DNA of 64,000 bases from Ignavibacteria bacterium (GTDB lineage: Bacteria; Bacteroidota; Ignavibacteria; Ignavibacteriales; Ignavibacteriaceae): positions 1 through 64,000 of the forward strand of contig JAJTBZ010000049.1 of NCBI GenBank assembly GCA_021286645.1, read 5' to 3'. The translations under genes were made by a program, and so were the position numbers. Shown here piece after piece: positions 1-10,654 of this stretch (within the stretch, counting starts at the first letter, position 1; each line of letters starts with the position of its first letter). The notes beneath the pieces are model-generated. The model was not told where the DNA came from. It made no database searches and worked only from the letters and a program-made list of their open reading frames with translations.

Positions 1-819
1 AAAGTCACCGTTATAGTTATCGGTTATCTTGTTGGGTATGTCACCTTTCGCTATACGATCAACGTATTCCGCTGCTACATTCAACGGACCTATTACCGAA
101 TCCAGCGTGTCATTAACTCCCTGAACAATCTTCCGGAAATCGCCCTGGTGTTTACTTGCATCGGCACGGGTGGCGAGTCTTCCTTCTACTGCTGCTTTCG
201 AGAGTACTCCTGCATCCGATACTAAAGTATTCACTGCATCTATACAGGTATTCAGATTATTCTTTATTTCGTTAAAGTCACCGTTATAGTTATCGGTTAT
301 CTTGTTGGGTATGTCACCTTTCGCTATACGATCAACGTACTCTGCGGCTACATTCAAAGGACCTATTACCGAATCCAGTGTGTCATTAACACCCTGAACA
401 ATCTTCCGGAAATCGCCCTGATGTTTGCTTGCATCGGCTCGGGTAGCAAGCTTGCCTTCTACTGCAGCTTTCGAGAGTACTCCTGCATCTGATACTAAGG
501 TATTTACTGCATCTATACAGGTGTTCAGGTTATTCTTTATTTCATTGAAATCGCCATTGTAATTATCCGTAATTTTCTTCGGAATATCACCCTTTGCAAT
601 CCGGTCAACGTACTCTGCTGCTACATTCAACGGACCGATTACTGAATCCAGAGTATCATTCATCCCCTGAACTATATCCCGGTATGCTCCATTAAATTTG
701 CTTACATTTCCTCTGGTAGCAAGTTTGCCATCAACGGCTGCCTTGGCAAGAATTTTAGTTTCCTGTGTCAACTCTGATAGAGTATTTACCATTCGCTTAA
801 GAGCCGGAGAAATTTCATC
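1..819 (-). repeat. 273-bp (91-codon) tandem repeat encoding HAMP pairs
   Basis: The segment starting at base 1 recurs at 274 and, more diverged, at 547, each time 273 bases apart and in frame. The first 60 bases of the copies at 1 and 274 are identical, and the following 120 bases differ at roughly a dozen sites. The copy at 547 is clearly more diverged. This is what stepwise tandem duplication within the gene would leave, with the youngest copies towards the left edge. More copies may lie outside the window. Confidence 0.9.
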
Positions 820-1677
820 CTTATCATCCTTCGACACAACATCAATATTAATATCTCCTTCAGAAATCTTGAGAAGATTTCTAACCACATTATTTTGCAG
901 ATCATCGGCAAAACTATCCATTGCCTTGGCCATTGTACCGACTTCATCATTAAACGTCATGCCTAACCGATTACCAAGATGCCCTTTCTGTAACTCAACA
1001 ATCATGTTTACAGTTTTATACAGAGGAGCACCGATTAGGCGAGTAAGTAAGATGGCTAAGCCACCGGATAAAAGAATACTAAGGATTAAAAATACCACCA
1101 TAAGATTCTTTGAATTACGGCCACTCACCGAATCATCCGTATAAATCCTCTTTGCTTCACTTGCATTAATATCTATAAGCTTAACAAGTGAAGTCTGTAA
1201 TGAAAGCATAGCGGCTCGTGCCGGTCCGTTAGAAATTACCAATGCCTGCTTATCTTCAAATTGTCGAACGTGTGGAACAATTTCATCCCTCAATTTCATA
1301 TACTCTGCATAGGCTTGCTTAAATATAGCCAGATTTTCTTCCTCAGCTTTAGTCATTTTTGTTTGCGAGTATATCTTCATTAATGAATCAACAAGAGCAA
1401 AATCTATATAGGTGTTAGAAATATACTTATTGCGTTCTGCCAACACATCGGTGAGCATAGCATTACGAATATCACCCCGCGCCCTTAACAGGGCAGCCTG
1501 GGCACGACCAAGATCCCGTAAAGGCTCAACTCTGCCAAAATAGAATTCAGATTCGCTGTCTATAAGATTCGATATGGATGTATAACCTTCGTATGCAATA
1601 AACACAGCTATAGCCATAAGTATGGTAAAGCTGACAAAAAGTTTGCTGCGAATTTTCAAGTTATTAAACCAGTTCAT
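1..1677 (-). CDS. Membrane chemoreceptor with tandem HAMP repeats (N-terminal part, runs off left edge)
   Basis: An open frame begins at ATG 1677 and is still open at base 1, giving 559 visible codons. It starts with LKIRSKL, typical of MCPs, and a membrane helix at about residues 12-29. A mostly helical extracytoplasmic domain of about 155 residues of four-helix-bundle type follows, then a second membrane helix at about 191-212, a HAMP domain, and a series of HAMP-like modules. The modules carry the recurring cores AAEYVDRIAKGDIP and DAGVLSKAAVEG in a 91-residue period. The signalling end lies outside the window, so it could be an MCP or a kinase. Its place as last visible gene of a cheA operon favours an MCP. 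GGAG lies about 9 bases before the ATG. The MBL gene stops 13 bases upstream. Confidence 0.88.
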   Translation of the reverse strand, partial: MNWFNNLKIRSKLFVSFTILMAIAVFIAYEGYTSISNLIDSESEFYFGRVEPLRDLGRAQAALLRARGDIRNAMLTDVLAERNKYISNTYIDFALVDSLMKIYSQTKMTKAEEENLAIFKQAYAEYMKLRDEIVPHVRQFEDKQALVISNGPARAAMLSLQTSLVKLIDINASEAKRIYTDDSVSGRNSKNLMVVFLILSILLSGGLAILLTRLIGAPLYKTVNMIVELQKGHLGNRLGMTFNDEVGTMAKAMDSFADDLQNNVVRNLLKISEGDINIDVVSKDDKDEISPALKRMVNTLSELTQETKILAKAAVDGKLATRGNVSKFNGAYRDIVQGMNDTLDSVIGPLNVAAEYVDRIAKGDIPKKITDNYNGDFNEIKNNLNTCIDAVNTLVSDAGVLSKAAVEGKLATRADASKHQGDFRKIVQGVNDTLDSVIGPLNVAAEYVDRIAKGDIPNKITDNYNGDFNEIKNNLNTCIDAVNTLVSDAGVLSKAAVEGRLATRADASKHQGDFRKIVQGVNDTLDSVIGPLNVAAEYVDRIAKGDIPNKITDNYNGDF

Positions 1678-1690
1678 AGGATGGACTCCA

Positions 1691-2290
1691 TTAAATTATT
1701 TGACTATCTTTCACAATTTTCAATGTGTTACGAATCATTTCAACGGGCTTATAAGTTATCGGATCACCATGCCCGGGATAGATTGTTTTTATTTCGAGTT
1801 TCGACAGAAGCTTAAGCGATTCAAGATACTCACGAGTAAACGCACCACCCGGAGTATTGATTTGCAATGTGGTATCCCCGGAAAACAATATTCCATCGGC
1901 GGGAGAGAAGATACAGATAGAATCAGATGAATGCCCCGGTGTTGAATATAACGTACACCATCTGTCGGCTAATCGAATCTCTTCTCCATGACGGACATTT
2001 TTATGTTCAATATTTTCAATTTTTGCGGCAGCAATTACTTTCGGTTGATAATTGGAAATCACTTCCTTCAGGCCGCCAATATGATCAAAATGATTATGGG
2101 TAAGTATAACGAGATCAACGGGTTTTTTCCCTAACCCTGTGTTAATTCGTTCTATTTCATTAATAATAGAGCTATCCGATCCGGTGTCAATTATCGTGTT
2201 AACATCATCCAGTGTATTCCAATCACCAAGTAGTAAATAGGAATTACATGAATATGTTAACGGATTAGCTTTTAACCGGAAAATCTTCAT
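1691..2290 (-). CDS. MBL-fold metallo-hydrolase in chemosensory operon
   Basis: This 199-residue protein has the full metal-ligand set of a glyoxalase-II-type metallo-beta-lactamase fold: the HNHFDH motif (H65, H67, D69, H70), H120 in TPGH, D139 in FSGDT and H174 in YPGHGD. No signal peptide is visible, so it should act in the cytoplasm. Its ATG overlaps the cheR stop by one base (TGATG), which implies translational coupling. The substrate cannot be told from sequence. MBL proteins have been recruited elsewhere as metal/oxygen sensors for chemotaxis (the spirochaete ODP protein), but those derive from flavo-diiron proteins. The HxHxDH motif here is the hydrolase type, so an enzyme is the simpler reading. 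Confidence 0.85.
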   Translation of the reverse strand: MKIFRLKANPLTYSCNSYLLLGDWNTLDDVNTIIDTGSDSSIINEIERINTGLGKKPVDLVILTHNHFDHIGGLKEVISNYQPKVIAAAKIENIEHKNVRHGEEIRLADRWCTLYSTPGHSSDSICIFSPADGILFSGDTTLQINTPGGAFTREYLESLKLLSKLEIKTIYPGHGDPITYKPVEMIRNTLKIVKDSQII

Positions 2291-2904
2291 CAGTTTCCAC
2301 CAATCTTTTCGTAAAGTTGTGCATCCGGCACTACCCGATTGAACATATGTTGCAACTCATCGGGCATTTTCTGTGTTTGTTCCATCGCGAGCAATCCTCC
2401 ATCTGCAAGGGATTTGTGAAACATTTTCAATACTTCAACCCGTTCAGGGTACTGGAAATGTAATAGCACATTTTTGCAGAGTATAAAACTGCAATTCGTT
2501 TCCGCCGGTTGATATGATAATAAATCACTCTTTATATAACGCACTTTCTCCCGAATCAACTCATCAATAATAAAATAGCCGGGTCTTTCCTGAAGAGGAC
2601 TAAAATATTTGGCAAAGATTTCCGGAGGGATACGTTTTAATTCTTCGTCAGAATAAATCCCGTCATGAATAATCGTTCCAAAATTCTGACTCTCATCTAT
2701 ATCACTCGCGGTTATCTGAACATTTTTAAATGCAAATTTACCCATGTGTTCTGCCAGCAAAATAGCGAGTGTATACGGTTCTGGACCATTGGCACAGCCT
2801 GCATCCCAAATTTTAATTCGACTACGCCCGCTAATAATTGGGACAAGTTTATTAACAGCGATTTCAAGTGTGTATAAGTCACGAAAAAAGAATGTAAATG
2901 CCAT
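2290..2904 (-). CDS. cheR: Short CheR-type methyltransferase lacking the N-terminal domain
   Basis: Only the SAM-binding catalytic domain of CheR is present (204 residues; usual CheR is about 270-290). The protein starts right at FFRD, normally found some 70 residues in. It then has the SAM motif WDAGCANGPEPYTLAI (33-48) and the CheR signature CKNVLLHF (143-150). The N-terminal helical domain that helps recognise receptor methylation helices is missing. It cannot lie upstream, because cheA ends 6 bases before this start. The start has no clear Shine-Dalgarno, so translation probably depends on cheA. It may be an active methyltransferase with altered receptor recognition, or a receptor-binding remnant. 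Confidence 0.85.
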   Translation of the reverse strand: MAFTFFFRDLYTLEIAVNKLVPIISGRSRIKIWDAGCANGPEPYTLAILLAEHMGKFAFKNVQITASDIDESQNFGTIIHDGIYSDEELKRIPPEIFAKYFSPLQERPGYFIIDELIREKVRYIKSDLLSYQPAETNCSFILCKNVLLHFQYPERVEVLKMFHKSLADGGLLAMEQTQKMPDELQHMFNRVVPDAQLYEKIGGN

Positions 2905-2910
2905 ATAATT

Positions 2911-4974
2911 TTATACTAATGTTGATTTTTCTTCAATTTCCTGTAATTCAGCTATTTTATTGATATCAAGTGTTAAGGCTACTCTACCATCACCTAAGAT
3001 TGTAGCACCACTTATACCTTCGACATTTTTATATAATGCTCCCAATGATTTTAACACTGTTTGATGCTGCCCTACAACAGTATCCACAACGAAACCTACC
3101 CTAATTCCGTTAATATCCACTACAACAACCTGCTCTATTTCCGGCCTCTCTCCCTTTATGAGAAAGAAATCCCTGAGGCGTATATAGGGTACAATTTCAC
3201 TACGTATATTTATCAGGTTTCTCTGATTACTCATAACGGTATCATGACGGGTTAGTTCAACACATTCCTCCACCGAAGAAAGCGGCAGAATATAAAACTG
3301 ATCCTGGACACGAATTAACAGTCCATCAATTATTGCAAGCGTCAGCGGTATCTTTAATGAAAGAGTACTTCCTTTCCCCTTTTCACTTTTTACCTCAATA
3401 GTTCCACGCAGATTATCGATAGCTTTTTTAACAACATCCATGCCCACACCTCTGCCTGAAACACTGGTCACCTGTTTGGCGGTTGATAAACCCGGATTAA
3501 ACATCAGAGCATAAGTATCCGCATCCGATAACAGAGTTTCCGGAGATAGTAACCCCAAATTAACAGCTTTAGTACGTAGAGCTTCTTTATCGATCCCGGC
3601 TCCATCATCAACGATCTGTATAACCACGTACCCACCGGATTGGAATGCTTTTAATGTAACTTTCCCGACCGGGTTTTTCCCTGCCAACTGCCGAACTTCC
3701 GGGGTTTCGATTCCGTGGTCCAAACTATTACGCAATAAATGTATAAGAGGATCGCTAATCTTTTCGATAACGGTTTTATCCAACTCCGTTTCAGCACCTA
3801 AAGTAATTAACTCTACTTCTTTTCCAAGTTCTTTACTCAGATCCCGGATTAACCGATTAAATTTTCCAAATGTTGTTCCTATAGGCAACATTCTAATATT
3901 CAGCGCTGAATCGCGTAAATCCCAGGTAATCCTTTCTACAGATTCTGCAATAGCCAGAAGAATCGCGCTCGATGTTTCATTCGCTACCTGAGTAAGTTGT
4001 GCCTGAAGTGTTACCAGTTCTCCTACCAGATTTACCAGTTGATCAATTTTCTCAGCACTTACCCGGATACTGGATACTACCTCGCCATCATGATGAATTT
4101 TGTGTCTGTCTGCTTCACGAATATGTTGCTCATCAACATTCTTTTTCTGTTGAGATTGTACATACAGGCTAATGATATCGTTATCAACTAATTTATTTAG
4201 TTTAGCAGTTTCCTTAAGGAATAATTCAACAGCATCCTCTGAAATAAGCACACCCTCTTTACTCAATACAGTAAAGCACAACGTGCTATCGTCTTCAACA
4301 AATATGAAAATATCTTTTATTGAATTGATATTTTTGTTCGACGAAAGAACGATATCCCATGCAGTATAACACTTTTCTGGATTCATCTCCGTAAATGCAG
4401 GAATAGCAATATCTCGCGAACGAATATAAAAGGGACCCATTTCTTCCAATTCATTCAAAAGTAATAACGGATTTGTTCCCGATAGAAAAATATCTTCGTT
4501 GGGTTTAAAGTGAATGTAATAGATCTGTGTTACCTGTGTATCAGCAACCTGTACAATTGTACCGGAGGTAACTGTTTCAGGCGTAGTACTTTTAGTAGAA
4601 TTTATCAGTGCCCTAAATGAGTGTAAGATTTCTTTTGTTTCGGTCAGCTCGGAAAATTTCTTGGAAGAACTGTCATCCAGCATCGCCTTAATATAATCGA
4701 GAGACTTAAATGTTAAATCGATGATTTGTTTTGAGACGGTTAATTTACCGGAACGAACGAGATCGAATATTGTTTCAATGTCATGAGTAAACATTGAAAT
4801 ATCATCATAACCAAACATACCGCTTGAGCCTTTAATCGTATGCAGCGCACGAAATATCGTCGCGATAAGAGCTTTATCCTCCGGGAATTTTTCCAGTTCA
4901 AGGAGTCCAGATTCAAGTTCTGCAAGAAGCTCGAGAGCCTCTTCTCGGAATGCCTGCTTATGCTGGTCTAACAT
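2911..4974 (-). CDS. cheA: Chemotaxis histidine kinase CheA
   Basis: The 687-residue protein has all CheA modules in order. The HPt domain carries the phospho-accepting H45 in LHTIKGSSG. A CheY-docking P2-like domain spans about 150-245. The dimerisation helices begin near 303 (LVNLVGELVTLQAQL). The ATPase domain has its N box at 412-420 (HLLRNSLDH), G1 at 456-462 (DDGAGID) and G2 at 507-513 (GRGVGMD). A CheW-like domain spans about 545-680. It phosphorylates CheY in response to receptor arrays. The start overlaps the end of cheY by 7 bases. No separate cheW is seen in the window, so the C-terminal CheW-like domain may be the main receptor coupler here. Confidence 0.97.
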   Translation of the reverse strand: MLDQHKQAFREEALELLAELESGLLELEKFPEDKALIATIFRALHTIKGSSGMFGYDDISMFTHDIETIFDLVRSGKLTVSKQIIDLTFKSLDYIKAMLDDSSSKKFSELTETKEILHSFRALINSTKSTTPETVTSGTIVQVADTQVTQIYYIHFKPNEDIFLSGTNPLLLLNELEEMGPFYIRSRDIAIPAFTEMNPEKCYTAWDIVLSSNKNINSIKDIFIFVEDDSTLCFTVLSKEGVLISEDAVELFLKETAKLNKLVDNDIISLYVQSQQKKNVDEQHIREADRHKIHHDGEVVSSIRVSAEKIDQLVNLVGELVTLQAQLTQVANETSSAILLAIAESVERITWDLRDSALNIRMLPIGTTFGKFNRLIRDLSKELGKEVELITLGAETELDKTVIEKISDPLIHLLRNSLDHGIETPEVRQLAGKNPVGKVTLKAFQSGGYVVIQIVDDGAGIDKEALRTKAVNLGLLSPETLLSDADTYALMFNPGLSTAKQVTSVSGRGVGMDVVKKAIDNLRGTIEVKSEKGKGSTLSLKIPLTLAIIDGLLIRVQDQFYILPLSSVEECVELTRHDTVMSNQRNLINIRSEIVPYIRLRDFFLIKGERPEIEQVVVVDINGIRVGFVVDTVVGQHQTVLKSLGALYKNVEGISGATILGDGRVALTLDINKIAELQEIEEKSTLV

Positions 4975-5336
4975 CCTAATACCTTTTTGGTTACTGATAA
5001 CAGTTGTTCCGGATTAAATGGTTTTACTATCCATCCTGTTGCGCCGGCAGCTTTTCCCTCAGCTTTCTTTTCAATCTGTGACTCCGTAGTAAGCATAATA
5101 ATGGGAATGAATCGATACTCTGTTTTTTTTCGCAGCTCTTTTATCAGTCCAATACCATCCATATTAGGCATATTAAGATCTGTCACTACCATATCTACTT
5201 TCTGATTACTTAGTTTCGCGAGAGCATCCTTGCCATCGCATGCTTCAATAACATTATAACCTGCCTCATGCAAAGTAAATGATATCATTTGCCGCACACT
5301 TGCCGAGTCATCAACTGTCATTATCCATTTATTCAT
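4968..5336 (-). CDS. cheY: Single-domain response regulator CheY
   Basis: A 122-residue stand-alone receiver with all active residues: acidic pair D9/D10, phospho-acceptor D53 in VVTDLNMP, T83/T84, and K105 in IVKPF. It has no output domain, so it acts by protein binding and is the expected phosphate acceptor of CheA next to it. It overlaps the STAS gene by 8 bases upstream and cheA by 7 bases downstream. Whether it acts on a flagellar switch, gliding motility or a non-motility target cannot be told, since no motility genes lie in the window. Confidence 0.95.
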   Translation of the reverse strand: MNKWIMTVDDSASVRQMISFTLHEAGYNVIEACDGKDALAKLSNQKVDMVVTDLNMPNMDGIGLIKELRKKTEYRFIPIIMLTTESQIEKKAEGKAAGATGWIVKPFNPEQLLSVTKKVLGC

Positions 5337-5676
5337 GTTTTTCCTCTGCTAACGATATAGCCATCTTATCTAACTGATTTTTGAAATCCGTAAATCCTGA
5401 TTTATTAATTATTACATAAAGGGGGGCTGCAAAGGAAGAATGGATTTTTATTTTCCATCCCTGCAACAGCGCAAAACGCCAAAAACTTACAAACAGTTGA
5501 ACAAATGAAAAGTCGATTTCCAGGTCACCATCAGCAGAAATTTCCAGGATTTCAGGTGCGAAGTCGGAAATTCTTTCCAATAAAGCTTTACACTCCCCTA
5601 TATTTTGAATAGTCAGCGATTTTTCAAGACTGATGGGTACGAGTAAATCATTTTTTTGAACTGTAAACTGAACCAT
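5329..5676 (-). CDS. STAS-domain protein of the chemosensory operon
   Basis: A 115-residue protein with the STAS alternating strand/helix pattern: LTIQNIGECKALLERI, then an LEISADGDLEID-like strand and loop, then FVQLFVSFWRFALLQG. In anti-sigma antagonists a Ser/Thr in the loop after the third strand is phosphorylated. Here that loop reads DGDLEIDFSFV and no clear conserved DSSG is present, so classical partner-switching control is uncertain. It lies 14 bases after the soluble receptor gene and overlaps cheY by 8 bases. STAS proteins occur in some chemosensory clusters, so a link between CheA signalling and a kinase/STAS pathway is a reasonable inference. Confidence 0.7.
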   Translation of the reverse strand: MVQFTVQKNDLLVPISLEKSLTIQNIGECKALLERISDFAPEILEISADGDLEIDFSFVQLFVSFWRFALLQGWKIKIHSSFAAPLYVIINKSGFTDFKNQLDKMAISLAEEKHE

Positions 5677-5690
5677 ATGTATCCCGATAA

Positions 5691-7469
5691 TTAAAACAAC
5701 TCTACATTGTCACCAAAGGACGTATCCTTCAGCGAAAGCCTGTCATGCCCGGGTCTCCTGGCGCTATCCTTTTTTCCTTCAAAACTGGCATGAATATCCC
5801 GCTCACTCTTCATAGTGTATTTTCCCCGTAAACTCATCAACTCCTTACCGGATGTTACGCCAGCTATGTGTTCCGTCCCGGTAAGTTCTTCCATGCTATG
5901 AATAGCTTCCTGAATGCTTTTGCTCACCGTGGCGTCGATAGTGATACGGGCAACTGCCTGGTTTAAAGACGAGCTAAGCGACTTCGATTCATTTTGTAAG
6001 TTTCGAATTTTTTTCATTATTTCTGTTTCGGAATCCTTGGCAGCTGCCAACTGTGATCCTAATTGATCATGAATGAGCGAAAGCTCTTCGAACAATTTAA
6101 TACGATAATTTGCTTCAATATTTGTTTGTATTCGCTCCGAGATATCAGTAATCTTCCGTAGTGAAACAGCCGTAGTTTCAGACTGGTTTGTTGCCTGCGC
6201 AGAAATTTTCTGAATTGTATCGGCGATTACTCCCAGGCCTGCCCCTTCTTTTCCTGTATGAGCAGCTTTTATACTCGCATTTAAAGCAATTAACTCTATC
6301 TCTGTCCCTATTTCTTCAATTTCAAAAATGAATGTGCTCAGTTTCTCGGCCGTGAGTAAAACATTCTTGATTGAATCAGATAGATCGATCGAAAGTGCAT
6401 TACTCTTTTCCAAATCGATGTTGACTTCTTTCAGGTATTCTCCAATATCTTCCAGAAACTTAATCGAAGAGGCATCCTTTGACCCGATGATTGATAGAGT
6501 ATGGTTAAAAACCTCATCTACCTGCCCGCCTATCGCAGAAAGATTTTGCTTAAGATCCGCCACAGCATTAATCAAAGTCTGCTGTGAATTTTCGAGTTGT
6601 GAAACTTGTAACCGGCAAACTTTATTTACATAAGCAATAAGGCCTTCCTTCTCTGATTTACCAGATCCTATTTGATCGGTAAGTTCGTGTACTTCAATCA
6701 GGACATGCTCTATTTGTTGCCGGGTTATATCATGGAATTGGATATTTGAAACTGCATAACTGGTATTACGAGTGATTAATTCACTATCATCTCGTATCAG
6801 GTTAATCTTCGAGCTAAAATTTCTATAGTTATCTTTTAACAATCCCATACAGTTTTCAATTTGAGCCATTATCTCCCTTGTACGCTCATCTTTACCCTTG
6901 TGGAAGCCTCTTATTTTATCATCAACTGTTTGGATAGATGCAGTTAACTGCTTAATATTTTCTTTAATTGCATTTACTTTGTCCTGAACAACACCGGAAA
7001 GTGAATCGACATTAGTTGCTATTACTTCAAAAGAATTATTCTCATGAAAAAGTCGAACGGATTCGATTCTGGTCGAAATTCCAAGCATCCTTAGATATTT
7101 AATTATCCTATCATAACCTTCGAGATCCGTCCTCAGCAAATCCAATATTCCACTAATAATCTTCAAAATATCGGTACTTTCGCTCAGTTCGTTTTCCAAA
7201 TGTTCTAAGTATGAATTAATCTTACTAAACATTTCTTCGAGGCGGGTATTACTTTGGGCAAGTATTTGGGAAGAAAAAACCTGTGCAATTTCTTCGCAGA
7301 TTTCTTTTACATGCTTTGAGTCAGCATAATGTGTTTGAAGAATATCCCCAATTATAACAAATTCTTTTTCTGCAATACTGTTTGCCTTTCGCAATACAGT
7401 ATCAATTTTGCTCAGATTCCCCTGAGCCACTTGAAGAAAATCAGTCGAACTATTTTTACTCATCATCAA
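5691..7469 (-). CDS. Soluble MCP-like receptor, two hairpin-like segments
   Basis: A 592-residue, largely coiled-coil protein without membrane helices or signal peptide. The MCP hairpin tip, which contacts CheA/CheW, is at about 392-430 (IELIALNASIKAAHTGKEG, then VIADTIQKIS). A second, weaker hairpin-like stretch at about 126-165 (LGISTRIESVRL, FEVIATNVDSLS) is followed by SNIQFHDITRQQIEHV (241-256), often seen in cytoplasmic MCP relatives. No ligand-binding domain is recognised. It is the first gene of the operon and is preceded by GAAGAG. The start may be any of the first three Met codons. The last 60 residues are polar and probably disordered. Confidence 0.88.
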   Translation of the reverse strand: MMMSKNSSTDFLQVAQGNLSKIDTVLRKANSIAEKEFVIIGDILQTHYADSKHVKEICEEIAQVFSSQILAQSNTRLEEMFSKINSYLEHLENELSESTDILKIISGILDLLRTDLEGYDRIIKYLRMLGISTRIESVRLFHENNSFEVIATNVDSLSGVVQDKVNAIKENIKQLTASIQTVDDKIRGFHKGKDERTREIMAQIENCMGLLKDNYRNFSSKINLIRDDSELITRNTSYAVSNIQFHDITRQQIEHVLIEVHELTDQIGSGKSEKEGLIAYVNKVCRLQVSQLENSQQTLINAVADLKQNLSAIGGQVDEVFNHTLSIIGSKDASSIKFLEDIGEYLKEVNIDLEKSNALSIDLSDSIKNVLLTAEKLSTFIFEIEEIGTEIELIALNASIKAAHTGKEGAGLGVIADTIQKISAQATNQSETTAVSLRKITDISERIQTNIEANYRIKLFEELSLIHDQLGSQLAAAKDSETEIMKKIRNLQNESKSLSSSLNQAVARITIDATVSKSIQEAIHSMEELTGTEHIAGVTSGKELMSLRGKYTMKSERDIHASFEGKKDSARRPGHDRLSLKDTSFGDNVELF

Positions 7470-7553
7470 GGAACTCTTCGTTAGTTACCATTCTAATCTA
7501 TACTTAAGCAAGTTTCGTAATTACCTGCTCATTTACCCTGTCTAAACTTATCC

Positions 7554-7565
7554 CCTGATATCAGG
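7554..7565. promoter_or_regulatory. 12-bp perfect palindrome upstream of the chemosensory operon
   Basis: CCTGATATCAGG is a perfect 12-base palindrome in the 245-bp gap between the response regulator stop (7715) and the first operon gene (start 7469). The symmetry continues imperfectly outwards to 16 of 18 positions. It sits about 85 bases before the start codon, a usual place for an operator. The NarL-type regulator encoded just upstream is a candidate binder by position only. Confidence 0.35.
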
Positions 7566-7714
7566 AGAAAGTGCACTTCCTTTCATTCCACTTTATTATC
7601 GAAATAGTCTGGTGGGTTTATATAACAAGAAATGGTAATTTTATGGTACTAGAAGTAGGTATATTTATAAAGGAGTCACTTGTTCAATTCCGGAAGGGAT
7701 AGGGTAGAATTCTG

Positions 7715-8374
7715 TTAATCGGGGCGAATTCCATGTCGTATAGCGTAGTTCACTAGTTCAGCGGTATTCTTGAGTTTCAGTTTTTTCAAAATGTTTTTTC
7801 TATGTTTGCTAACGGTAAAATAACTAATAAATAGCTTCTCAGCTATTTCCTGACTGGTAAGTCCATCGGCAATCAGCCCAAGAATTTCTGTTTCCCGGCT
7901 AGTCAGAATAACACCTTTAAGCACCGCTTTGCCTTCTGGTCCCCCGGGGGCTTTTCGTAATGTATTTAATAATGCATTAGAAGCCATTTCATTCACATAC
8001 TGGTTACCAGCCAAAATTGTTTGAAGGGCCTGGAAGAATTCGTCCATGCTGGCCATTTTGTTCAAATAGCCATTAGCTCCCGCGGTATACGCATCGATAA
8101 TCGATTTCTGGTCATCGAACATTGATAACACTAAAATTTTTACCGGTATTCCGGCACCTCTCAAATGCTTAATTACTTCGATGCCATTCTTCCGGGGCAT
8201 ATTCAAATCCAATATAAGCAACGAAGGCCGGTATTTGGTGGTCAGCTCGATGGCTTGTAAGCCATCCTCTGCCTCGGCGATAATATCATATCCCGGCTCA
8301 GTGAGAATAAGATTTTTTAACCCATCTCGCAGTATTGTATGGTCATCGGCCAGTATTAGCTGAATTTTGCTCAT
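7715..8374 (-). CDS. NarL/LuxR-type response regulator
   Basis: This 219-residue protein has an intact receiver (D10/D11, phospho-acceptor D56 in LLILDLNMP, S84 in LVLSMFDD, the lysine position in GYLNKMAS). A LuxR-type helix-turn-helix follows at about 155-215 (LTSRETEILGLIADGLTSQ, then EKLFISYFTVSKHRKNI). Such proteins bind DNA as dimers once phosphorylated. The gene overlaps the upstream kinase gene by 32 bases, so the kinase is almost certainly its partner. Confidence 0.95.
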   Translation of the reverse strand: MSKIQLILADDHTILRDGLKNLILTEPGYDIIAEAEDGLQAIELTTKYRPSLLILDLNMPRKNGIEVIKHLRGAGIPVKILVLSMFDDQKSIIDAYTAGANGYLNKMASMDEFFQALQTILAGNQYVNEMASNALLNTLRKAPGGPEGKAVLKGVILTSRETEILGLIADGLTSQEIAEKLFISYFTVSKHRKNILKKLKLKNTAELVNYAIRHGIRPD

Positions 8375-10232
8375 AAATCATAACATTTGGAAATGAAAAG
8401 TTGATTATAGTTCCCTTACCGGATTCGCTTGTAAACGCGAATGTTCCTTCAAATAGTTCCGCCCTTTGTTTCATATTCATCAGCCCATATGTGGGACCTT
8501 TTCCTGATTTGGAATTCATGTCAAATCCCTTGCCGTTGTCAGAAATCTGAATATAAAGATTTTCATCATCCTCACCGAAGCGAATGGTAATCTGAGTTGC
8601 TTCTGAATGTTTAGCGATATTGTTAATGGCTTCCTGCACCATTCTATACACATGAAAGCGGAATTCCTCAACAAATTCCTCGTTCTGTACCTCCTTCTCC
8701 CAATAAACTTCAATTTGTGTGGTTTTGGAGAATTGAGATAACAATGATTCAATAGCTTCAAAAAATTTGTCCACCGGTATAACTACGGGATGGATTGAAT
8801 ATATAATATTCCTAAGCTCAGTTCCGGCCGAGGTTATGAGCGATTTTGCTTTGGTAATAGAAGGAAAGGATTCTCTTTGAGTACGTTCAAATACTTCAAG
8901 AGTAAATTTTGCTGCAGAAAGAATCTGCCCCACACTATCGTGAAGTTCGGAAGAGATTCTAAGCCGTTCATCTTCCAGCTTGCTGAAGATTCCTGAAGCA
9001 AGTGTTCTTTTTTCAATCAGTTCCCGGCTAAATTCTTTGGCTTTATAATATTCCGTAAGATCTTCAACAATATTCACGATACTGAGAATTCTGCCGGATG
9101 TATCTTGAAGTGCATAATAACGAAATAAAAAGATTCTATCATCTACCAGGTTTTCTTCAAAACGTGGTGCATCAAAAAAGAGCGGCATAGTTGAAAAAGT
9201 ACCCCCTTCTGAAAGTAATGCATCCACTTTATCCCACAATTTATAATGTGCTATATAAGGATCGGAATAAATTGTTATTTCGGTATTTTCCTGAAGGCCG
9301 AGAAAAGGGAATAGAATTTTTTTTGCAACAGCGTTTTGATAATTTAAACGGCCCGTAGGATCGTAAATTCTTATCGCTAAAGGAGATTCATCGATAAGCG
9401 CCGTAAGCTCGGTAGTTCGTTCCTCTACTTGCTTCTCAAGTTGACTCTTTGCGGCAACCAATTCCAATTCAGCTTGCTTACGAGCAGTTATATCCCGAAT
9501 AATTAAAGTAAAAAAACGATCATTTTCTACATGCCATTGCGAGAATGAAATTTCTACAGGAAACAAAGCCCCGTCTTTTTTTCGTGCGTCCAATTCCAGA
9601 TGGTCGCTTAATAAAGGGCGACCCAGGTTAAGAAATCGCTTGGCACCCCGCTCAAGATGATTCACAAATGTATCGGGCATCAAAGTTTTAATACTCTTGC
9701 CGAGTATCTCTTCTTCATCGTACTGAAACAGGTCAATTGTTTTCGGATTAATTGAGGTAATAAGACCATTTTCATCAAGGGTAAGAACGCTGTCTGTCGC
9801 GGTGAAAATAAGAGTGCGGTATTTTAACTCACTTAACAACAGTGCTTTTTCCATCTGGTGACGATATAAAGCGATTTCAATTGTATTAAATAAGTCCTTA
9901 AAATCTATCGGTTTAACTATATACCCATACGGCTCGGTTATTTTTGCCCTCTGGAAGGTATCATCGTCTACGTGTGCGGTAATGAAGATTACAGGAATGT
10001 TATATAGTTCTTTAACTTGCCGGGCGGCCCTAATCCCATCAATATCGCCTTTGAGCATGATATCCATAAGAATAATATCAGGCAAGCCTTTTTTAAGCTG
10101 TAGGAACAGGGTATTTGCTTCTGATGCAACTCCAAGGACTTCATATCCAACTGACTGCAGCCGTTTTCGAATGTCCATGGCAACAATTGCTTCATCTTCT
10201 ACAATAAAAAGCTTCGCCCTGACACCATTCAT
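8343..10232 (-). CDS. Hybrid sensor histidine kinase: receiver-PAS-PAS-HisKA_3-HATPase
   Basis: A 629-residue soluble kinase. Domains in order: receiver (E12/D13, D57 in ILMDIML, K107 in IVKPID), PAS at about 135-250, coiled linker, second PAS-like domain at about 272-400, HisKA_3 dimerisation domain with H431 in SSELHDSVGQ, and an ATPase domain (N537 in QEAINNIAKH, DNGKGFD at 565-571, GLMNMKQRAELF). This is the NarX/DegS-type kinase fold that pairs with NarL-type regulators, and one is encoded next door with overlap. The receiver at the N-terminus lets it be an acceptor as well as a donor. GGGTGA lies 5 bases before the ATG. Confidence 0.95.
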   Translation of the reverse strand: MNGVRAKLFIVEDEAIVAMDIRKRLQSVGYEVLGVASEANTLFLQLKKGLPDIILMDIMLKGDIDGIRAARQVKELYNIPVIFITAHVDDDTFQRAKITEPYGYIVKPIDFKDLFNTIEIALYRHQMEKALLLSELKYRTLIFTATDSVLTLDENGLITSINPKTIDLFQYDEEEILGKSIKTLMPDTFVNHLERGAKRFLNLGRPLLSDHLELDARKKDGALFPVEISFSQWHVENDRFFTLIIRDITARKQAELELVAAKSQLEKQVEERTTELTALIDESPLAIRIYDPTGRLNYQNAVAKKILFPFLGLQENTEITIYSDPYIAHYKLWDKVDALLSEGGTFSTMPLFFDAPRFEENLVDDRIFLFRYYALQDTSGRILSIVNIVEDLTEYYKAKEFSRELIEKRTLASGIFSKLEDERLRISSELHDSVGQILSAAKFTLEVFERTQRESFPSITKAKSLITSAGTELRNIIYSIHPVVIPVDKFFEAIESLLSQFSKTTQIEVYWEKEVQNEEFVEEFRFHVYRMVQEAINNIAKHSEATQITIRFGEDDENLYIQISDNGKGFDMNSKSGKGPTYGLMNMKQRAELFEGTFAFTSESGKGTIINFSFPNVMIYEQNSANTGR

Positions 10233-10255
10233 AATGTCACCCGTTTTGTTTTCGG

Positions 10256-10654
10256 TTACGTAGGAATTTTCCTGATAATTTCAAGTAATTCGCTGCTGCT
10301 ATATGGTTTGGGCAGATAATGATAAAAACATTCTCCAATTTCCTTTTCCAGTTCATCGGTAAGCGAAAACGCGCTAATTCCAATGATCGGGATTTTATCA
10401 TATCCATCGAGTTTACGAATTTCGCGTGTTACTTCCAATCCATTCATTCCCCTGCCCAAATTAATATCCATCAGAATAACCGCATATTTTTTCGATTGTG
10501 CCAATGCCAAGGCAGTGGAACCATCCAATGCAGTTTCTACCTTATAATAATGCTTAAGATACATGCTGGTAAATTTGGCGTTAACAACATCGTCTTCAAC
10601 AATAAGAATAGCAGAATTCCCTACTGGTGCGGGAAATGATTGTGAAATATTCAT
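10256..10654 (-). CDS. Stand-alone receiver domain protein
   Basis: A 132-residue receiver with the acidic residues E20/D21/D22, phospho-acceptor D63 in VILMDINLGRGMNG, and a late lysine in LPKPYSS. There is no output domain. It lies 23 bases upstream of the hybrid kinase gene and is probably co-transcribed. The LGRGMNG loop after the Asp is of the type seen in receivers that act in phosphorelays with hybrid kinases. It is probably a phosphate acceptor or sink for the next gene's kinase. Confidence 0.9.
   Translation of the reverse strand: MNISQSFPAPVGNSAILIVEDDVVNAKFTSMYLKHYYKVETALDGSTALALAQSKKYAVILMDINLGRGMNGLEVTREIRKLDGYDKIPIIGISAFSLTDELEKEIGECFYHYLPKPYSSSELLEIIRKIPT

Follow-up and report, generated by a model that had tools for sequence, protein, structure and literature searches.

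The seven tightly packed genes at positions 1-7469 (minus strand) of the window, by which we mean the whole 64,000-nucleotide stretch of Ignavibacteria DNA under analysis, are best explained as the 5' part of a complete chemosensory operon that is apparently mobile, that probably acts on an output other than the flagellum, and whose accessory proteins would have the roles proposed below; we give this reading as a whole a probability of about 0.6. Its core, namely the completeness of the operon and the conservation of the operon type, is practically certain: the system is a real one, with its full set of genes and a wide distribution, and the STAS and MBL genes are recurrent components of it.

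A complete operon divided by a contig end

The order and the tight packing of the seven genes were verified, and the intergenic distances (read from position 1: +13, -1, +6, -7, -8 and +14 bases) agree with the overlaps or gaps of at most 14 bases described in the sequence-only reading. In the direction of transcription, all on the minus strand, the genes encode a soluble MCP-like protein (5691..7469; 592 aa, no transmembrane segment, two degenerate MCP hairpins); a STAS-domain protein (5329..5676; 115 aa); a CheY with one receiver domain (4968..5336; PF00072, E 2.4e-29), whose TDLNMP block is kept in 33 relatives; a CheA histidine kinase with Hpt, dimerisation, ATPase and CheW-like domains (2911..4974); a short CheR-like protein (2290..2904; 204 aa); a glyoxalase-II-like MBL-fold metallohydrolase (1691..2290); and the 5' half of a membrane chemoreceptor with a 4HB sensor, a HAMP domain and tandem HAMP_2 repeats of 91 aa (1..1677). 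Pfam backs the assignments of the 4HB/HAMP/HAMP_2 receptor, the MBL protein, the CheR domain, CheA, CheY and the MCP signal. Upstream, at a distance of 245 bp, lie two-component genes on the same strand (7715..10654), which encode a LuxR-type response regulator (7715-8374), an RR-PAS-HisKA_3 kinase (8343-10232) and a further response regulator (10256-10654).

Base 1 of the window is base 1 of its contig, C56, that is to say a contig end, and C56 breaks off within the 273-bp HAMP repeats (91 aa each) of the tandem-HAMP receptor gene. The sole other match to this repeat in the genome is at the right end of C43, where that contig breaks off in the same repeat and in a compatible frame. The receptor gene of 1..1677 continues there with its 3' half (L013:6923-8527, minus strand), followed in order by genes for CheW (174 aa), CheR with a CheR_N domain (278 aa), CheB (357 aa), a hybrid histidine kinase, a response regulator and a PAS histidine kinase. 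Moreover, in another Ignavibacteriales contig (L078) both halves of the operon are colinear on a single contig, where ten window genes (1 to 10654) find their counterparts along with seven from C43, the upstream two-component genes stand in the same order 5' of the operon, and the receptor bridging the break point has 1272 aa. The full order would then be soluble MCP-STAS-CheY-CheA-short CheR-MBL-poly-HAMP MCP and, beyond the contig break within the receptor gene, CheW-CheR-CheB-hybrid HK-RR-PAS HK. CheA, CheW, CheY, MCP, CheR and CheB are all encoded, which makes a complete chemosensory operon.

The sequence-only reading had found neither cheB nor cheW, because contig C56 ends inside the HAMP repeats; it had also allowed that genes may continue past the left edge, and this is what they do. 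Leftward extension, named beforehand as the refuting test, leads across an unread gap of HAMP repeats to the remainder of the receptor and to cheW, cheR and cheB on C43, a conserved arrangement that lies on one contig in L078. The apparent lack of both genes is an assembly artefact. That the system is truly reduced and dispenses with CheB and CheW, for which nothing more speaks than their absence from the window itself, has a negligible probability, since the adjoining contig carries cheW, cheR and cheB and relatives show the same order. A false oddity is removed in this way, since a che operon said to lack CheB or CheW would misguide annotation. As for signal flow, the membrane 4HB/poly-HAMP receptor would act through CheW on CheA, leading to phosphorylation of CheY, and judging from homology the full-length CheR and CheB would provide ordinary adaptation.

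Conservation of the operon type across phyla

The short CheR served as the query of the conservation scan, which found 135 relatives; the loci of the best 80 of them were examined, and being picked by the short CheR they are silent on how often the other genes occur without it. These best 80 of the 135 are spread over Ignavibacteria, other Bacteroidota, Geobacteraceae, Desulfobacteraceae and Acidobacteria, and also over Nitrospirae, Riflebacteria, Wallbacteria, Firmicutes and methanogenic archaea. The recurrent order, or a near permutation of it, is soluble MCP-STAS-CheY-CheA-short CheR/MBL-poly-HAMP MCP-CheW-CheR-CheB, and gene orders of the operon type recur in Ignavibacteria, Geobacteraceae, Desulfobacteraceae, Acidobacteria and Nitrospirae. 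Of the 79 loci with space for an MBL gene, 58 have it next to the short CheR gene, and in 63 of 77 the short CheR has a poly-HAMP receptor no more than 3.5 kb away; certain loci have the short CheR, with or without the MBL gene, and no CheA inside about 10 kb. The gene-order search thus shows conservation outside this strain, with the operon type shared by distant phyla and three accessory parts recurring across them.

Close copies are scarce, being found in 3 of 198 genomes of the phylum besides its own (E below 1e-60). Because few relatives in its own class carry close copies, a patchy, horizontal spread is suggested, and the operon appears to be mobile. The system had been called little-described, and a limited literature search bears this out in that it found no description of the gene set, and nothing directly describing it in Ignavibacteria. 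In those parts of the Geobacter chemotaxis literature reached by a term search, no STAS or MBL gene is named within che clusters.

The short CheR-like protein and the MBL protein

The short CheR-like protein matches CheR structures and consists of the SAM-binding domain (PF01739) alone, without the CheR_N domain that the full-length CheR of the operon on C43 does have. In T. denticola an Arg and a Tyr are stated to be essential to CheR activity (PMC7666581). The Tyr has become His (His149) in all 84 relatives of the short CheR, and is retained in 19 of 20 full-length CheRs of the same loci; the Arg of FFR and the Glu and Asp of the SAM site are kept in 84/84, and the Arg of CRN is replaced by Lys in the same 84/84. 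Since one of the two essential residues is lost together with the N-terminal domain, we rejected filing this protein as CheR. These losses make it fairly likely that it is not an ordinary receptor methylase, and it is probably a SAM-binding regulator or an atypical methyltransferase. A precedent is the CheR-like domain of T. denticola in which both residues are changed, and which binds SAM as a chemotaxis sensor (PMC7666581, PMC10653840). Like this CheW-CheRlike sensor, CheWS, the short CheR has altered essential residues and is encoded with CheA; unlike CheWS, it is a stand-alone protein without the N-terminal subdomain, keeps the Arg, and has His where CheWS has Phe in place of the Tyr.

It could also be an active methyltransferase rather than a regulator, with a special substrate such as the poly-HAMP receptor, the STAS protein or the soluble protein. 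The invariance of the FFR Arg and of the SAM residues would suit this, as would the conserved link to poly-HAMP receptors; the uniform His in place of Tyr, the missing N-terminal domain and the complete CheR often encoded by the same operon speak against it, and on balance we hold it to be on the unlikely side. In either case the uniform Tyr-to-His change delimits a clean family of short CheRs, candidates for SAM sensing or for new chemistry.

The MBL protein has an HxHxDH motif plus H, D and H and so retains the full set of seven metal ligands, as do 64 of 64 sequences. Its closest named families are glyoxalase II-like. In Pfam it scores 98.9 bits with Lactamase_B and 27.4 bits with PF19583 (ODP), whose cut-off is 27.2, and naming it ODP was rejected on account of this borderline score versus a far stronger general match. 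The linkage of the MBL gene with the short CheR suggests that the two proteins share a role. The short CheR-like protein would bind SAM and, together with the MBL hydrolase, make up an input module linked to the poly-HAMP receptor.

Instead of a metabolic hydrolase, the MBL protein may be a ligand or redox sensor docked to the receptor. The model for this is ODP of Treponema denticola, an MBL-fold diiron protein that acts as an oxygen sensor and is coupled genetically to an MCP homologue (PMC7666581). The operon's protein resembles it in its fold and in its genetic coupling to a chemoreceptor, with a conserved position beside a receptor and the weak PF19583 match as further points in favour; however, glyoxalase II and generic Lactamase_B proteins are far nearer to it, and it has the standard HxHxDH dinuclear site, which leaves the sensor reading doubtful. 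A bolder view is that the short CheR and the MBL protein run a modification cycle of their own on poly-HAMP receptors, a second one parallel to CheR/CheB, in which the CheR-like enzyme would add an ester, methyl or other, for the metallohydrolase to take off. It is prompted by the linkage of short CheR, MBL and poly-HAMP receptors across bacteria and archaea, including loci with no CheB or CheA detected nearby, and we regard it as quite improbable.

The soluble MCP-like protein as a candidate CheY-P phosphatase

The first gene had been called a soluble MCP. The MCP likeness stands, with MCP-like segments and a Pfam MCP signal, but an ordinary receptor it is not, as it has degenerate tips and a CheZ-like motif. 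Alignment reveals two MCP-hairpin-like segments, with tips near residues 139-146 and 404-409, and in neither is the canonical chemoreceptor tip with N, E and R (LNAAIEAARAGE) preserved: hairpin 1 keeps the Glu and mostly the Arg and has lost the Asn, whereas hairpin 2 keeps the Asn and has K, H or R at the Glu position in 26/26 sequences. In standard receptor tips this Glu makes trimer contacts.

The CheZ-like motif of the protein is QFHDITRQQIEHV, with D247 and Q251. It belongs to a pattern QxHDxxRQxxxH on the helix after hairpin 1, among the best-conserved columns of the family, and QxHDxxRQ is invariant in 24 sequences despite a mean column identity of 29%. In its strict form the motif occurs in 26 of 3,421 ORFs, every one of them in the slot of the soluble protein. 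In five of six relatives its D and Q fall on positions 129/133 of the Pfam CheZ profile, the sixth having them at 130/134. E. coli CheZ has its catalytic D143/Q147 at the same positions 129/133, which puts the catalytic pair in register, as mapped without gaps by counting from the start of each below-cut-off Pfam match. In fact the Pfam cut-off for CheZ is not reached, the best relative scoring 19.9 bits versus 30.7, and the window copy gives no CheZ match. In two Nitrospirae the same slot holds a single-hairpin receptor with canonical tips and the sequence FQDITRQ, and these two proteins match CheZ with E-values of 7e-4 and 4e-3. Moreover, the protein ends in a DNVELF tail whose final F is invariant, and the C-terminus of CheZ, its CheY-binding tail, reads DDLLxSLGF. 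Family searches of the genome gave no match for CheZ or CheC.

The alignment of the invariant D and Q with D143/Q147 of CheZ, the tail ending in F, and the absence of CheZ and CheC lead us to propose, at about even odds, that the soluble MCP-like protein is an array-linked CheY-P phosphatase. It would be a phosphatase on an MCP-like rod able to dock on the array, and its DxxxQ motif would stand in for the CheZ absent from the genome. CheT of Sinorhizobium is a precedent of such a hidden DXXXQ phosphatase (PMC12654446). The protein shares with CheZ of E. coli and CheT a helical-bundle DxxxQ that lines up with CheZ D143/Q147, an acidic C-terminal tail ending in F, and a place beside CheY; it differs in its 592 aa and two MCP-like hairpins, in a sequence match confined to the motif, and in having HD..RQ where the CheZ/CheT type has QD..GQ. 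Full-length homology with CheZ was rejected, since a profile-profile comparison with E. coli CheZ gave E 0.17 and a six-species CheZ profile stays near chance outside the motif region. A model of the protein reaches a modest pTM of 0.56, and with it Foldseek returns MCPs and long coiled coils with poor TM-scores and no CheZ, so the fold search is neutral on the phosphatase reading. If the phosphatase reading is true, a receptor-like scaffold can itself house the means of ending the signal, which would help explain the switch-off in systems without CheZ or CheC.

Another explanation, which we consider unlikely, is that the protein is a double-hairpin receptor like DosM, scaffolding an array in the cytoplasm with a CheA/CheW layer on either side, with the HDITRQ motif being structural. 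DosM of V. cholerae is built without a membrane part and carries two signalling domains (PMC7534058); by description the operon's protein is alike in being soluble, as it lacks a transmembrane segment, and in having two MCP-hairpin-like segments. Compared with DosM of the F9 system, however, its tips are degenerate, with the basic residue in hairpin 2 and no Asn in hairpin 1, it carries the DxxxQ motif, and its operon includes a membrane receptor; besides, the motif is conserved as strongly as the tips and persists in the single-hairpin membrane versions.

The STAS protein and the output of the pathway

The STAS protein of the window is a diverged copy: Pfam on this copy alone gives no match, and a family profile is required. 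At the family level the STAS call is confirmed, as 26 of 28 members match STAS_2, the family profile matches solved anti-sigma-factor antagonists in the PDB, and an AF2 model (pLDDT 82.6) resembles TM1442/RsbV. The Ser position of the SpoIIAA type is Ser in certain members and Ala or Thr/Gly in others, and regulation through phosphorylation at this position is for that reason not general in the family. A single-STAS protein, CheS of Sinorhizobium, binds CheA and alters the choice of CheY (PMC12654446). By analogy, the operon's protein may tune the CheA/CheY phosphotransfer in the manner of CheS, a role we advance tentatively: the likeness, drawn by description and not by sequence, is a single STAS domain within a che operon, and CheS of Sinorhizobium meliloti differs in phylum and in CheA context.

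From the STAS and MBL members it had been surmised that the pathway reaches beyond motility. These members are indeed recurrent, and the output is probably not the flagellum, since protein-family searches of the genome, rated 99% complete, gave no match for FliG; the surmise holds in this part. Matches to the PilT family (pilus ATPase) lie just under the curated cut-off and make a type IV pilus a possible output.

Receptors and regulators around the chemosensory operon

At the Nitrospirae loci L120 (342-1505) and L131 (2695-3876), the place of the soluble MCP-like protein (592 aa), which is encoded by the first gene of the che operon, is taken by a membrane-anchored canonical receptor. Both receptors bear MQFQDITRQRIEHV together with a YTMExER tail, and they are the simplest form of the fusion between a receptor and the CheZ motif. 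Three regulatory genes (7715-10654) are found upstream of the che operon and are separated from it by 245 bp: one for a response regulator of the LuxR type, one for a kinase of RR-PAS-HisKA_3 architecture and one for a single receiver. A matching trio precedes the operon in the Ignavibacteriales contig L078, where the order is kept and the identities to the window genes are 59, 54 and 48%, respectively.

Elsewhere in the same genome, a second che cluster (C98:85000-94500, L015) comprises CheA (788 aa), an MCP, two CheW, a CheR-like protein of 519 aa and CheB. Contigs C65 (L016) and C22 (L017) carry paired MCP-CheW genes with no CheA near either.

Occurrence in archaeal records

The short CheR is also found in four methanogen/ANME records (L113, L133, L141 and L153), and in all of these except L153 it is adjoined by MCP and CheW, which suggests that a module with the short CheR was transferred into archaea. 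Contig L106, which is labelled Nanohalarchaeota and carries the genes for short CheR, the MBL-fold hydrolase, CheW and CheA, is probably mis-binned.
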